Origin: Chryseobacterium gleum
GTDB taxonomy: Bacteria; Bacteroidota; Bacteroidia; Flavobacteriales_D; Sanyastnellaceae
Length of the DNA stretch: 36,322 nt
Assembly (NCBI GenBank): GCA_945874695.1
Contig: CAMCHP010000027.1
Location: forward strand, 1-36,322
Direction: 5' to 3'
The translations under genes and the position numbers were made by a program. Of the stretch, positions 17,726-27,806 are shown piece after piece. The stretch's first letter is position 1. Every line of letters begins with the position of its first letter. Below the pieces are notes generated by a model that was not told the origin of the DNA, searched no databases, and saw only the letters and a list, made by a program, of their open reading frames with translations.

Positions 17726-18541
17726 ATGTTTGAGCGCACGGTAGCCAATTGGGAAGTGCCTCAAGCATGTGCGAAAGAAGCGTCATGGGACAAGTTGCAA
17801 GCGCGACTTGAAGCGAGTTCGACCGTGAAGGTCGTTCCCTTGTATCGCAAAGCAAGCGTTTGGATTGCGGCAGCGTGCATTGCGGCCGTGCTATTTTTTG
17901 CGGCCTCGTTGATCGATGAAAAGCCGGTTGAGTTTGTAGCGAGTACTTACGAGCAGGTTATTTTACCTGACCGTTCAGTGGTTCATTTAACCCCGGGAAG
18001 CTCAATAGCCTATGCCTCGTCATGGGATCAGCGGGAAGTGATCTTGAAAGGAGAAGCGTTCTTCGAAGTAGCCAAAGGAGAAACCTTCACCGTGCACACA
18101 GCTGCGGGTGATGTTTCGGTTTTGGGTACCAGCTTTAACGTGTATGCCCAAAATGAAGGCTTTGCTGTAGAATGCATCACCGGAAAAGTGAATGTAGCTT
18201 CAGGAGATGTCGCACACGTGATCACAGCGGGGCAAGGCGTGAAAACACGCAGTGGGTCATTGAGTGTGCCTTATGAGCACGGATTAACAGCCCCCTCATG
18301 GCAGCCGGGCACTGAAGTGAATTACACAAATGCAGATATTTCACGTGTAATTGACCATGTCGTGCAACGTTATGGTGTATCTGTGCGTCTTGATGATAAC
18401 TTGCGTGAAAGTGGGAAAGAGTTCTCAGGTACTTTCACCGATTCTGGGGCGTTTGAAACGCTCACCCTGTTGGCATTGGTTCTTAACCTCGAATTGGAGC
18501 AGATCGACGAAAATTCGTTTGCGCTCTATATGTTAAATTGA
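17726..18541 (+). CDS. FecR-family anti-sigma factor
   Basis: An inner-membrane anti-sigma factor of 271 residues. A short cytoplasmic sigma-binding N-terminus (residues 1-44) precedes one membrane helix (45-63). The periplasmic FecR domain includes VILPDRSVVHLTPGSSIAY, VILKGEAFFEVAKGETFTV and VLGTSFNVYA. The C-terminal domain (about 200-271, DUF4974-like) resembles an STN domain, as in other Bacteroidetes FecR proteins. ATG 17726 is preferred; a TTG seven codons upstream is possible. Unusually, it lies after the receptor and lipoprotein instead of directly after the sigma gene, and has its own promoter. Confidence 0.92.
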   Translation: MFERTVANWEVPQACAKEASWDKLQARLEASSTVKVVPLYRKASVWIAAACIAAVLFFAASLIDEKPVEFVASTYEQVILPDRSVVHLTPGSSIAYASSWDQREVILKGEAFFEVAKGETFTVHTAAGDVSVLGTSFNVYAQNEGFAVECITGKVNVASGDVAHVITAGQGVKTRSGSLSVPYEHGLTAPSWQPGTEVNYTNADISRVIDHVVQRYGVSVRLDDNLRESGKEFSGTFTDSGAFETLTLLALVLNLELEQIDENSFALYMLN

Positions 18542-19941: not shown

Positions 19942-19976
19942 AAAAAGCCCTCCTCGTTAAAGGAAGGCTTTCGCTT
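19942..19976. terminator. Bidirectional terminator between queA and the PpiD-like gene
   Basis: Stem AAAGCC / GGCTTT extended inward by four more pairs after one mismatch, with a six-base loop. It has five A on one side and T-rich sequence on the other. It separates convergent genes ending at 19923 (+) and 19996 (-). Confidence 0.8.
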
Positions 19977-23533: not shown

Positions 23534-23736
23534 TGTTGCCGTTCAAGGCGTTTTCGCACGGCTCGGCGCACGAAGTACCAAACGATGGCAATTGCGGGTA
23601 CAATGGGTGCGAATTTATGCGCTTCAATGCCATCCGTTGACCACCAATAGATGGTTACGAGTGTGGTGAGAAGGGCAACGAGAAGCCAAAACTTCTCGGC
23701 CATTTTGTGCACTTTAATTTGTTGTTCGTGGCTCAT
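23524..23736 (-). CDS. Small membrane protein, 70 aa
   Basis: A protein with two predicted membrane helices: FWLLVALLTTLVTIYWW (about residues 16-32) and FAPIVPAIAIVWYFVRRAV (about 42-60). A basic tail (RRAVRKRLERQQNS) follows, so both ends are probably cytoplasmic. ATG 23736 (MSHEQQIKVHKM) is preferred over a start ten codons upstream because it reduces the overlap with lptC to 23 bases. No known function. Its place between lptC and a CNNM gene in a tight array supports it being real. Confidence 0.72.
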   Translation of the reverse strand: MSHEQQIKVHKMAEKFWLLVALLTTLVTIYWWSTDGIEAHKFAPIVPAIAIVWYFVRRAVRKRLERQQNS

Positions 23737-24304
23737 CGGTATCGCTTGAATTTTCAGGGTCTTCAATGAAAAGGGTTCCTGAGACTTGTTTTATTTGACG
23801 TTTTTTGAATCGACTGTCGCTTACCAATCCTTTCCCGTAAATGGTTCCGCTTTCTGAGGTGATAATCACGTGTTTGTTGGTATATACGAGGTCGCTGTCT
23901 TGTACAAAATAGAGTTCTTCGGTATTGAGTTTACTACCTTCGTTATTCACCAGTTCTACCTCTTCACGGGCGACCAATCGTCCGTCGCTTTCCCAGAATG
24001 TGCCGGTACGCGCGCTTAAAACAGCTTCAATACCGCCTATGCTATCGAACACCGTAAGTGTAAATCCGTCAAAAACCTCAATTCGCGGATTTTCGCCTTC
24101 GAATCGGTCGAGTAACTTGGCTTCAAGTTTGTTGCGCAAATGTCCCTCTTCTGTGAAATAATAAGTACCGTTTTCAACAGTTTGAACGGCGATGTCACGT
24201 TCATCAATCAAGGCATTGATTTCCTTAATATCATTTCCGCATGAAAAAAAGATTCCGCTGACCAAGGCCAGCGGAATCATAGCGTTCAGCGTTCGAGCCG
24301 CCAT
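23714..24304 (-). CDS. lptC: LptC-like LPS-export lipoprotein
   Basis: A 196-residue protein with the beta-jellyroll strands of LptC (TYYFTEEGHLRNKLEAKL, ENPRIEVFDGFTLTVFD and SGTIYGKGLVSDSRF). Known: LptC links the LptBFG transporter to LptA in the lipopolysaccharide bridge; Bacteroidetes versions are often lipoproteins. Here the signal peptide ends in IFFSC. The start overlaps the upstream TPR gene's stop by one base (TAATG). A second ATG at 24280 would also give a signal peptide. A canonical intrinsic terminator (stem plus seven T) lies within codons 9-21, which is very unusual. Confidence 0.82.
   Translation of the reverse strand: MAARTLNAMIPLALVSGIFFSCGNDIKEINALIDERDIAVQTVENGTYYFTEEGHLRNKLEAKLLDRFEGENPRIEVFDGFTLTVFDSIGGIEAVLSARTGTFWESDGRLVAREEVELVNNEGSKLNTEELYFVQDSDLVYTNKHVIITSESGTIYGKGLVSDSRFKKRQIKQVSGTLFIEDPENSSDTDEPRTTN
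24244..24278 (-). terminator. Intrinsic terminator inside the start of lptC
   Basis: Minus strand: GATTCCGCTG, an eight-base loop, CAGCGGAATC, then seven T. The 10-bp stem is perfect. It lies 26-60 bases after the lptC start codon, in the sequence encoding the signal peptide. By shape it is a textbook rho-independent terminator and may end or attenuate transcription coming from the upstream TPR gene. Confidence 0.65.
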
Positions 24305-25662
24305 TAGCGAGTGCGAATGGTTGTTGCTTCACCTACACATGGTACGGTGAATGAGTCGCCTTCTTTTTTCGCAACGTTGAAAATATCTTCTTTTGAAGGG
24401 AACTGCGCTTTTGCAGTTGCCATCTTGCGTGAAGCGGCGTCACTCACACTCGGGTCAACTGATTTAGCGCGTGCATAATAGTCGTATGCCAACCAGTAAA
24501 CTGAGCGCGCACCCAAGGCACCGTCGTCACAAGCTCCAGAAAGAGCCATGATTGCGTCACCTTCCAAGATGATGGCCATACCATCTCTCGGATTCAAGGC
24601 CAGTGCCTTTTTGGCGTAGCTGCGTGCTTTTGAGCTTTGCCCCAGTGCTGATGCCACTTGACCTGCACGGAGGTAGTAGGTCGCGCGATCGCTGCCATCG
24701 GTTGCACCGTTCGCTGCTTCTTCTAGGTACTTCAAGGCGCCGCTGTAGTCGTCTTTCTTCAGCAAGCCCATACCGATTGCATAGGCAGAGGTAGGTTCAG
24801 GTGCAATGTCATAAACAGCTTTGGCTATTTTAATGTAGAAGTCGCTGCTTGAGCAGTCCTTCTTATTCATCAAACGAAGCACTTTTTTCTTCAATTCATC
24901 GTCGGCCGGGTTCTCGCTAATCTTTTGCTCGAGGACAGGCAACATTTGCTCACAGTCAGCGATTTGAACAAAGATTTCATCGAGGTTGTTGCGTGTTTTT
25001 TGGTAGGCCTCAATGATGCCTTCATCGGTGGCATTGATCAAATTAGCGTCGATGTAATCTTGCAGCAAAAGGTACTCAGTAAGCAAGTCACTGTGGTATG
25101 CTTTCTTTGCGTCGCCTTCAGCAGCTTTGAACACTTCAAACAAACTCAAGTAGTAACCACTGATGGTGCTTGCAGGGCTTGCAGTGGTAAGGCAATACAA
25201 TGATTCTTTGTACATGTTGTAAGCACCTTCAAGGTCTTTCTTGAAGTAACGTGCGTAATCAGACGCTTTATAACCCAAAATGCCACAGCGGTTGAGCGGT
25301 TCTTTATCGGTTGCCGCGAAAATTTCCATCCGCTGGTCGTAAACAAGCATCAAAGAGTCACGCAAGACTTTTTTACGATCAGTGCTCTCCGTGAGGTTGT
25401 ACATTTCTTTAATGAAGCGCACACCGTCAATGTAAAGTCCTTCGTTCACATCCGGCGGGCATACCGCGCAAGCCTTCTGCCAAACAAGGTAAGCGTCGGC
25501 ATAGTTTTTTTGCGTTTTGAAGCTTTTGTAAACGCTCAACGCCTCCATGCAGGCTACTTGCTGTTCTTCAGTAGCACCGTATTTTGATTGGTCTTGTGCT
25601 GTTGCCGCTCCTGCGATCATCAAACCCAAGGCTACAGCTTTAATTCGTGCAAATTGCTTCAT
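24304..25662 (-). CDS. Exported TPR-repeat protein
   Basis: A protein of 452 residues with a Sec signal peptide (MKQFARIKAVALGLMIAG, cleavage after ATA or TAQ), followed by helical repeats. Recognisable TPR units are DYSGALKYLEEAANGA and YLRAGQVASALGQSSKARSY, followed by AKKALALNPRDGMAIILEGD. Inferred: a periplasmic scaffold protein. I do not recognise a specific family name, but a TPR gene in this position next to lptC and an outer-membrane protein gene seems common in Flavobacteriales. The frame begins at 25710, but ATG 25662 starts directly at the signal peptide and leaves a 16-base gap to the upstream gene. Confidence 0.85.
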   Translation of the reverse strand: MKQFARIKAVALGLMIAGAATAQDQSKYGATEEQQVACMEALSVYKSFKTQKNYADAYLVWQKACAVCPPDVNEGLYIDGVRFIKEMYNLTESTDRKKVLRDSLMLVYDQRMEIFAATDKEPLNRCGILGYKASDYARYFKKDLEGAYNMYKESLYCLTTASPASTISGYYLSLFEVFKAAEGDAKKAYHSDLLTEYLLLQDYIDANLINATDEGIIEAYQKTRNNLDEIFVQIADCEQMLPVLEQKISENPADDELKKKVLRLMNKKDCSSSDFYIKIAKAVYDIAPEPTSAYAIGMGLLKKDDYSGALKYLEEAANGATDGSDRATYYLRAGQVASALGQSSKARSYAKKALALNPRDGMAIILEGDAIMALSGACDDGALGARSVYWLAYDYYARAKSVDPSVSDAASRKMATAKAQFPSKEDIFNVAKKEGDSFTVPCVGEATTIRTR

Positions 25663-25678: not shown

Positions 25679-27082
25679 TTAATCATATTTTCGTTGAACA
25701 AACCAGGCATTTTTGAAGAAAGGAGACAGTGTAAATCCGATCACGGCGTTCACATAGTTCTCTTCGATCATGTTGCCTGCATTCTTACCTCTGTTGCCAA
25801 ATTCCATGCCAAAGTGAATTTTACTTGCTGAGCGCGAGCTCACAATCGGGAAAGAGATGCCCGCGGTGAACGCCTGGTCGAGAACTTGTTCCCCATCTAC
25901 AGCGAGGTAAGTTGCACTGTTTCTGTAACCTAAGCGATATTGAGCGCGATCGAGTAAGTTTTTTCCCTCTTCAACAGAACGTGGTGTGAATTGTACGCCA
26001 ACACCGAGGGTTGTGGTGTTTAATAAGCCGGGATTAAGCTCTGCATCGTTGACCTGAGTTCTGAAATTGCTCCATTCGCGCATTTCGATGTCGGCCGCTA
26101 CCAAAATATGTCGGCCGCCTTTGAAGTGATAGTGAAGGGCTATGCCCCCGCGCAAGCGTGAGGGCAAGCTGCTCGTGCCATCGCCAACCAGTGAAAAAGA
26201 GGTGTCAATCGGGAAAACTGCGCCTTGCTGAAATATGACTGATTCACTGAACTGTTCGATGGTGGTATTCATTTCCAGGGCTGGCGTATACACTGCTCCA
26301 ACTTGGAGCAAGAGGCGCTCGGTCATTTTTCGGTCGCGGCCGTAACGCGCTTTCAGTAACGTTTCATAATGCACACCGAAATCGGCGCCAAAATCAAAGA
26401 GTCTGAAGTTGTTGGTCGCACGTGTGCCTAAGTAGGTCGTGTTTTGAATATTTACTAAACGTGACTGTACGACGTTTCCGAAGTAATAGTTTGCATTTAA
26501 CCCTGCACTGAACGTGTGTTTCTTGACTTTGACACTGTCAGTTACGAGGCCGTCCTTATCTGTAAATCGTTGCCATTTGGTCACGTCGAATTTTCGTCCG
26601 AAACCAATGAATGCCTTGTTGATGCCTCCGCGACCCTCATAGATGTATTGCACCTGACCCACACCCTCGATACTTTGCGTAGTGCTGATCGCATAGCCTG
26701 TGGTGCTAATGGGACTGATGCCGAAGATATACCCGGTTGGTGATCCGGGGCGTTTAAAGGCCATTTGAAATTGATCAAGATTGCCGGTGTTTTGTCGGCT
26801 TGAACGATCGCCTTCGTTGATTCTTAAAAAGTGGGTTCGGATGGATGTTTGGAAGGTGGTGTTGAAGAGGTTCCCCACGGTTGCCGGATTCTCGGCATTG
26901 AGCATGTAGGTATCGTTATATGTCGACGACACACCACCCAATCCAAGGGTTCCTACGTTGCCCCCGTTGTAGAGGTCTCCGATTCCGAAGCGCGAATAGG
27001 GCGACAGGTTATTGAATTGCGCAGATGCTCCGAAGCTGAGGCCCACACAGGTGTAAATCAGAACGGCAATTTTAGAGCGCAT
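25679..27082 (-). CDS. Outer-membrane beta-barrel protein, Bacteroidetes-specific
   Basis: A protein of 467 residues with signal peptide MRSKIAVLIYTCVGLSFG and cleavage near ASAQ. The first mature residues, FNNLSPYSRFGIGDLYNG, and the many alternating hydrophobic/glycine strands are typical of FadL/OMPP1-like barrels in Bacteroidetes (for example GYIFGISPISTTGYAIS). The C-terminal part GISFPIVSSRSASKIHFGME is barrel-like. Substrate unknown. ATG 27082 is chosen as the best signal peptide start; ATG 27100 is possible. It overlaps coaX by 11 bases. Confidence 0.82.
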   Translation of the reverse strand: MRSKIAVLIYTCVGLSFGASAQFNNLSPYSRFGIGDLYNGGNVGTLGLGGVSSTYNDTYMLNAENPATVGNLFNTTFQTSIRTHFLRINEGDRSSRQNTGNLDQFQMAFKRPGSPTGYIFGISPISTTGYAISTTQSIEGVGQVQYIYEGRGGINKAFIGFGRKFDVTKWQRFTDKDGLVTDSVKVKKHTFSAGLNANYYFGNVVQSRLVNIQNTTYLGTRATNNFRLFDFGADFGVHYETLLKARYGRDRKMTERLLLQVGAVYTPALEMNTTIEQFSESVIFQQGAVFPIDTSFSLVGDGTSSLPSRLRGGIALHYHFKGGRHILVAADIEMREWSNFRTQVNDAELNPGLLNTTTLGVGVQFTPRSVEEGKNLLDRAQYRLGYRNSATYLAVDGEQVLDQAFTAGISFPIVSSRSASKIHFGMEFGNRGKNAGNMIEENYVNAVIGFTLSPFFKNAWFVQRKYD

Positions 27083-27806
27083 TGAAACGGTAAATTTCAT
27101 AATAACCTTTAAGGGTCCAATTTGGGTCTGCAAAAATGCGACTTTTTACTCCCTGTTCAAAATAAGAGATGTCACCTCCTGTATAAACAAATTGTAAATC
27201 AGGGTACAGCGTTGCAAACGCAGCAGACATTCCATTTATTTCACTGCGCCATCCATTCAGGGCACCGCTCTGCAGGGCAGCCGTTGTCGACTTGCCTACA
27301 AGTGCAATGTTTACAGGGAGTTGAACCTGTGGTAAACGTTCGGTGAATGTGTGCATTGCACGTGTGCGCATGGCTAATCCCGGCGCGATTGCTCCGCCCT
27401 GAAACACACATCCGACCGTTAGGTCGAAAGTAATACACGACCCGAGATCAACGACGAGAACAGCTTGGTTTGGGAACACTGTTTGAGCCATCACGGCATT
27501 TGCTAAACGATCTAACCCAACAGTAGTGGGTGTTTCGTAATCAACACTGATCGGCAATGGGGTCGCTTGGGTGATTTCAAAAACGGTACTTCGGTGCCTG
27601 AAGTTTTCGAGAATCATACGCGGACCGCTCGCCGCAACGACCACGTTTTCATGGGTTTCAAGCACTTGTTCGAGCAAGGTGCCGAACTCAATTTGGTTGA
27701 TTTCGGTGCGCTGCACCCTTGTGATTTCGTGGTTTTCGAAATAGGCAACTTTCACGGCGGTGTTGCCGATGTCGATAACCACTGTTGCACTCACGGGGCG
27801 CTCCAT
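27072..27806 (-). CDS. coaX: Type III pantothenate kinase
   Basis: Phosphorylates pantothenate with ATP, the first step of coenzyme A synthesis. The 244-residue ASKHA-fold enzyme shows the phosphate-binding DIGNTAVKVAYF (residues 11-22), TVGLDRLANAV, DLGSCITFDLT and GGAIAPGLAMR, then TGGDISYF. All fit CoaX rather than the CoaA type. The segment TFDLTVGCVF is encoded by a repeat copy (27409-27431) whose stem has changed from GGCC to GACC/GGTC. The start overlaps the end of gldD by 16 bases. Confidence 0.95.
   Translation of the reverse strand: MERPVSATVVIDIGNTAVKVAYFENHEITRVQRTEINQIEFGTLLEQVLETHENVVVAASGPRMILENFRHRSTVFEITQATPLPISVDYETPTTVGLDRLANAVMAQTVFPNQAVLVVDLGSCITFDLTVGCVFQGGAIAPGLAMRTRAMHTFTERLPQVQLPVNIALVGKSTTAALQSGALNGWRSEINGMSAAFATLYPDLQFVYTGGDISYFEQGVKSRIFADPNWTLKGYYEIYRFNAL
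27409..27431 (+). repeat. Palindromic repeat, copy 9
   Basis: CATC, CGACC, loop GTTA, GGTCG, AAAGT. Differs from copy 1 by a matched pair of arm changes (GGCC to GACC/GGTC). Inside coaX. Confidence 0.8.

Follow-up and report, generated by a model that had tools for sequence, protein, structure and literature searches.

Why do the first codons of lptC, which encode a lipoprotein signal peptide, fold into a hairpin followed by a run of T, and which gene would such a signal serve? The question arose in a stretch of 36,322 nucleotides, called the window below, whose relevant features are listed in Table 1. The identity of lptC is certain. The preliminary description of this DNA had placed a 10-bp stem, an eight-base loop and seven T 26 bases into lptC, and had held that the hairpin encodes part of the hydrophobic signal peptide. 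Both statements were confirmed, the anatomy from the sequence and lptC by PF06835 and TIGR04409.

Table 1. Features of the lptC locus, in window coordinates.
Feature	Position	Strand	Detail	Basis
bamG (BamG family, beta-barrel assembly), upstream of the TPR gene	25679..27133	(-)		NF053685; context in relatives
TPR-repeat gene, Sec-type signal peptide	24304..25662	(-)		PF07719; ATG 25662 read from sequence
TAATG, TPR stop overlapping lptC start	24302..24306	(-)		sequence
lptC, 196 aa, lipoprotein	23714..24304	(-)		PF06835 and TIGR04409, both above cut-off
Predicted terminator hairpin	24278..24251	(-)	arms 24278-24267 and 24262-24251, loop 24266-24263	fold, covariation, synonymous-shuffle test
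U-tract T7	24250-24244	(-)	Phe19, Phe20, first base of Ser21	sequence

The hairpin, GATTCCGCTG-GCCTTGGT-CAGCGGAATC, has a perfect 10-bp stem and a loop of eight bases, and the stem begins 26 nt past the A of the lptC ATG. Two inner pairs (G-U and C-G) narrow the loop to four bases and bring the total to 12 pairs, giving the closed form GATTCCGCTGGC-CTTG-GTCAGCGGAATC. The T7 adjoins the stem and is followed by the lipobox Ser-Cys codons. Together, hairpin and T7 code for MIPLALVSGIFFS of the LptC signal peptide, MAARTLNAMIPLALVSGIFFS, whose lipobox cysteine is Cys22 (codon 24241-24239). By itself, the hairpin has 12 pairs, 7 of them GC, and a free energy of -19.5 kcal/mol; for the 81-nt region, the folding energy is -31 kcal/mol compared to -20.8 for shuffles (z -3.6). 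Of the 28 terminator-like sites listed for 18 kb, that in lptC came first and was the strongest (7 GC pairs). A search of Rfam gave no family at the hairpin, and its sole match lay elsewhere at chance level. A mobile or repeated palindrome was ruled out, as the hairpin occurs in a single copy in the 3.09-Mb genome. We also rejected a mis-annotated lptC start that truly lies downstream of the hairpin, because the signal peptide and the lipobox Cys are encoded by, or right after, the hairpin and T-run, in frame in relatives.

The gene directly upstream of lptC, and the presumed owner of the terminator, is the TPR-repeat gene. The overlap or close abutment of its stop with the lptC start recurs in relatives. 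A search of the PDB by sequence found no relative of the TPR protein, and no Bacteroidetes-type promoter (TTTG/TTG...TAnnTTTG) was found above chance upstream of the TPR gene. This protein of unassigned function sits between bamG and lptC; the bamG product scored 241.8 bits with NF053685, slightly below the 250-bit cut-off. Farther along the same strand, just past a PpiD/SurA-like gene, window positions 19943-19972 hold a strong terminator with 13 pairs, 5 of them GC, and a T-rich tail; the gene cluster probably ends there.

Next, the lptC site was compared with the ordinary terminators of the same genome. In 836 kb, 61 sites had at least 8 pairs, a free energy of -12 kcal/mol or lower and at least 6 T in eight. 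ORFs cover about 90% of the DNA, yet 47 of the 61 sites were intergenic. The only convincing sense-strand gene starts with such a site were lptC and one membrane-protein gene, and most of the few other sense-start sites fell in over-extended or spurious ORFs. Forty intergenic sites lay within 150 nt past a stop codon, at a median distance of 24.5 nt (quartiles 22-28.5). Since the lptC hairpin begins 25 nt past the TPR stop, it is, by position, the terminator of the TPR gene. A strong hairpin with T8 was also seen in this genome at L262 (contig C21 of G000, reverse strand, 18366-18388 in reversed coordinates). It falls in a hydrophobic stretch close to the beginning of a membrane protein of 466 aa (LLTAIAFAVAFFST) and may likewise be a terminator within the first codons of a gene.

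Recurrence was assessed at 216 lptC loci, namely that of the window and 215 related ones, drawn from its own order, one other large family and the rest of the class. For each locus, we recorded which gene lay immediately upstream and the best hairpin followed by a T-run close to the signal peptide; the threshold for relatives (-12 kcal/mol, five or more T in 8) was chosen once the data had been looked at initially. The closest relatives share about 60% LptC identity, with no congeneric genome among those searched, and synonymous sites should therefore be near saturation. In the order of the window (Flavobacteriales), 33 of the 39 sampled genera with the TPR gene directly upstream had a hairpin and T-run at the same place in lptC, compared to 0/15 genera, scored by majority per genus, with BamG directly upstream (Fisher p=6e-9). 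The rest of the class gave 13/25 genera with TPR upstream versus 1/28 with BamG (8e-5). These tests ignore kinship between genera, and the contrast between the two contexts spans at least 10 families. By the threshold used, the hairpin was missing from six TPR-bearing genera of the order and from roughly half of the TPR-bearing genera in the remainder of the class, and it is therefore not indispensable; genera of the window's own family with the TPR gene and no hairpin indicate that it can be lost. Conversely, one locus with BamG directly upstream and the TPR gene absent (L139, in G122) keeps the hairpin and T-run, possibly because its TPR loss is recent.

Lutibacter also bears the hairpin in lptC. 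A contig profile search with close alignment returned 16 named loci, all but two from Flavobacteriales or Cryomorphaceae MAGs. Among relatives, the gap between the end of the T-run and the lipobox Cys codon is usually 3-9 nt or less, and the geometry varies mainly by whole codons in the loop. In family f27, elsewhere in the class, four loci (L191, L194, L196 and L230) have the TPR gene, an ordinary intergenic terminator, a gap and then lptC. Two of these gaps (L191 and L194) hold TATCTTTG, which we take to resemble the known Bacteroidetes promoter (-7) element TAnnTTTG, suggesting that lptC has its own promoter there. As judged by sequence comparison, the recurrence of the hairpin at lptC is no accident.

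Selection at the RNA level was then quantified. Covariation was counted on 30 same-geometry sequences from 10 families, because mixing loop lengths misregisters the arms. Standard pairs filled 95.6% of cells compared to 71.8% in shuffled alignments, and double changes occurred in 11 of the 12 pairs (85 double-changed cells against 21 shuffled). The covariation score was 0.797, versus 0.293 for shuffled sequences and at most 0.19 for slid structures. Thus, stem sequences differ between relatives while pairing is maintained. When synonymous codons were resampled by local usage, the 58 hairpin loci of the order had an MFE of -20.9 versus -9.7 expected (mean z -3.5), compared to z -0.4 for BamG-context loci. 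The shuffle gave p<=0.01 at 43/58 loci for the fold alone and at 53/58 for fold and T-run jointly. In the last eight codons before the Cys, hairpin-bearing relatives had TTT:TTC at 83:10, versus 643:488 gene-wide. A check for relatives in which synonymous substitutions had broken the stem, the refuting case named in the preliminary description, gave the opposite result, with pairing kept and codons chosen for the stem. The hairpin is kept by quite different signal peptides, such as SSTALVVVLLFSC, LSISTFVFLTLVLFSC and LSMISLGMVMLFSC. The motif IPxxLxxG(I/M)FFSC is common where the hairpin is present and was not found without it; the sequence of the LptC signal peptide thus seems to be moulded by the RNA.

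The two genes flanking the site also differ in codon adaptation (CAI), used here as a proxy for expression only. For the genome of the window, the reference set consisted of EF-Tu, L11, L1, L10, L7/L12, rpoBC and groEL, since ribosomal L3 was not found in the MAG. The CAI percentiles of TPR and lptC were 97.9 and 37.7 in the genome of the window (of 528 ORFs), 97.4 and 27.8 in G012, and 97.0 and 32.6 in G116, and BamG ranged from the 29th to the 78th percentile. The TPR protein is probably abundant. With neighbours so unequal, a terminator between them would be expected; where the TPR gene is absent, none is needed and none was found. Start codons differed as well. No in-frame ATG was present near the TPR stop in 21/34 hairpin genera of the order (some have TTG or GTG, others lack all three), compared to 0/15 BamG-context genera; the window's own lptC has an ATG. 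Three relatives (L023, L086 and L091) have neither ATG, GTG nor TTG there and may use rarer start codons or reinitiation.

The site has a stable GC-rich hairpin, an adjacent U-tract, covariation and the usual position after a stop, all features of intrinsic terminators. We consider it probable, from these comparisons of sequence, that the hairpin and T7 are the intrinsic terminator of the TPR gene, overlapped by lptC, which would depend on read-through. The first of two alternatives in the preliminary description, that the site ends most TPR transcripts and limits lptC, stands as a prediction, well supported by the covarying conservation, the dependence on TPR, the post-stop position and the codon-bias contrast. 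Because lptC starts at the TPR stop, the putative terminator doubles as lptC codons 9-21, which encode the signal peptide. The anatomy and measurements in E. coli suggest that the T-run would release most RNA polymerases coming from the TPR gene, and the minority reading through would yield lptC and the genes beyond. Since lptC translation must begin upstream of the hairpin, lptC would be expressed only from read-through; no promoter would bypass the site, and output would be a set fraction of the arriving polymerases. The non-ATG starts of relatives would be a further brake, at initiation. We propose that they would also curb ribosome loading on stop-less truncated transcripts, which in E. 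coli halved expression of the upstream gene (PMC4824070). Such an arrangement would let a gene with high expression and an essential gene needed at low dose lie head to tail with zero intergenic space. We infer that read-through is constitutive rather than regulated.

Could the hairpin be no more than a by-product of coding, arising when signal peptides of the IPxxLxxGIFFSC type happen to give palindromes and T-runs? The motif IP...G(I/M)..FSC is common to many hairpin-bearing members, and the codons for IP and GI (ATTCC and GGAAT) do fall in the right register. However, synonymous shuffles of the same peptides fold worse (58 loci), covariation is strong and double-sided, and the hairpin is kept with unrelated peptides (L084, L103, L106, L108 and L110). 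In addition, BamG-context LptC signal peptides have neither the motif nor the hairpin. We give this explanation almost no credence, and as an origin of the hairpin it is refuted at the alignment level by synonymous shuffling and covariation. Another possible explanation is that the hairpin acts after transcription, stabilizing the TPR mRNA at its 3' end or slowing ribosomes at the signal peptide, and is not a termination site. Such a role, which would also be compatible with termination, would suit a hairpin that is strong, conserved and placed at the 3' end of a gene whose codon adaptation is high. The T-run right after the stem is itself selected, however, as seen in the TTT bias, and a role in LptC targeting is disfavoured because lptC without TPR upstream has no hairpin. 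As a replacement for termination, we regard this role as very improbable.

The site could also be a regulated attenuator of lptC, with reinitiating ribosomes or an envelope-state factor switching read-through and tying LPS-transport capacity to translation or demand. The overlap or abutment of the lptC start with the TPR stop would let a reinitiating ribosome enter the hairpin directly, and the unusual start codons of hairpin genera are consistent with such control. On the other hand, pairing of the upstream 80 nt with the hairpin arms was not above shuffles in 41 genera (mean z -0.08 against the 5' arm), and a classical antiterminator is therefore unsupported. In E. coli, termination peaks when more than about 27 nt separate the upstream stop from the beginning of the hairpin (PMC4824070). 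The distance is 25 nt in the genome of the window; the median across hairpin loci, 32 nt, lies beyond the interference by terminating ribosomes seen in E. coli. Translation from 30 bp upstream also had little effect in that species, costing a tR2 terminator located 30 bp past an AUG only about 10% of its efficiency (PMC4824070). Weak starts would hinder rescue by ribosomes, and the gene linkage implicates the TPR transcript, not lptC. The second alternative in the preliminary description, suppression of the hairpin by ribosomes translating through it, found no support in these comparisons: no conserved antiterminator pairing was seen, and about 90% activity despite translation is predicted from E. 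coli (PMC4824070). Control of read-through by ribosomes is possible, and regulated attenuation as a whole seems unlikely to us. We are equally doubtful of its broadest form, an order-wide switch in which read-through tuned by non-AUG reinitiation or an envelope signal sets LPS-transport capacity inside a structural gene.

Predictions of terminators within genes are usually dismissed as noise, and the one in lptC appears to be maintained by selection across an order and partly beyond. It offers a testable case of how neighbours with no intergenic space between them can be given widely differing doses, and bears on annotation, terminator prediction and the polar effects of TPR or lptC mutations in Flavobacteriia. 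If it is a terminator, every full-length lptC message must first escape a stop signal. Termination by the overlapped TPR terminator also predicts that lptC transcripts without a stop codon are constantly produced, at a cost that weak start codons would lower.

The lptC site resembles the intrinsic terminators of its own genome in having a GC-rich hairpin with an immediate T-run about 25 nt past the stop of the upstream gene, but it differs from the ordinary ones in being contained entirely within the coding region of the gene that follows, for which it encodes the signal peptide. The closest construct is W48 (Li et al. 2015, PMC4824070), in which E. coli tR2 lies 30 bp past the AUG of a second ORF and termination is about 90%. 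Both have an upstream stop, an overlapping second ORF and a terminator in its first 100 bp. W48, however, is artificial with a short dummy ORF, whereas the lptC site is natural, conserved and in an essential-type gene. Premature and ORF-internal 3' ends in E. coli (PMC7815308) are similar in that transcripts end in or at gene starts as a regulatory layer; those ends were mapped in one species and many are Rho-dependent or processed, whereas the lptC site is intrinsic by sequence alone and conserved across an order. As in pyrBI and the amino-acid leader attenuators, terminator formation could depend on a translating ribosome, but no leader peptide with regulatory codons and no antiterminator pairing were recognised, and the site lies in a structural gene. 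HMP2_4205, a palindromic candidate RNA near TPR genes of gut Bacteroidetes (PMC8040213), shares with it a predicted terminator near TPR genes in the same phylum. The text of PMC8040213 makes no mention of lptC; HMP2_4205 may be a gut relative or an earlier partial sighting of the lptC element. No earlier description of a terminator within lptC turned up in our literature searches. We regard the lptC site as a deeply conserved, new form of a known element, the intrinsic terminator.
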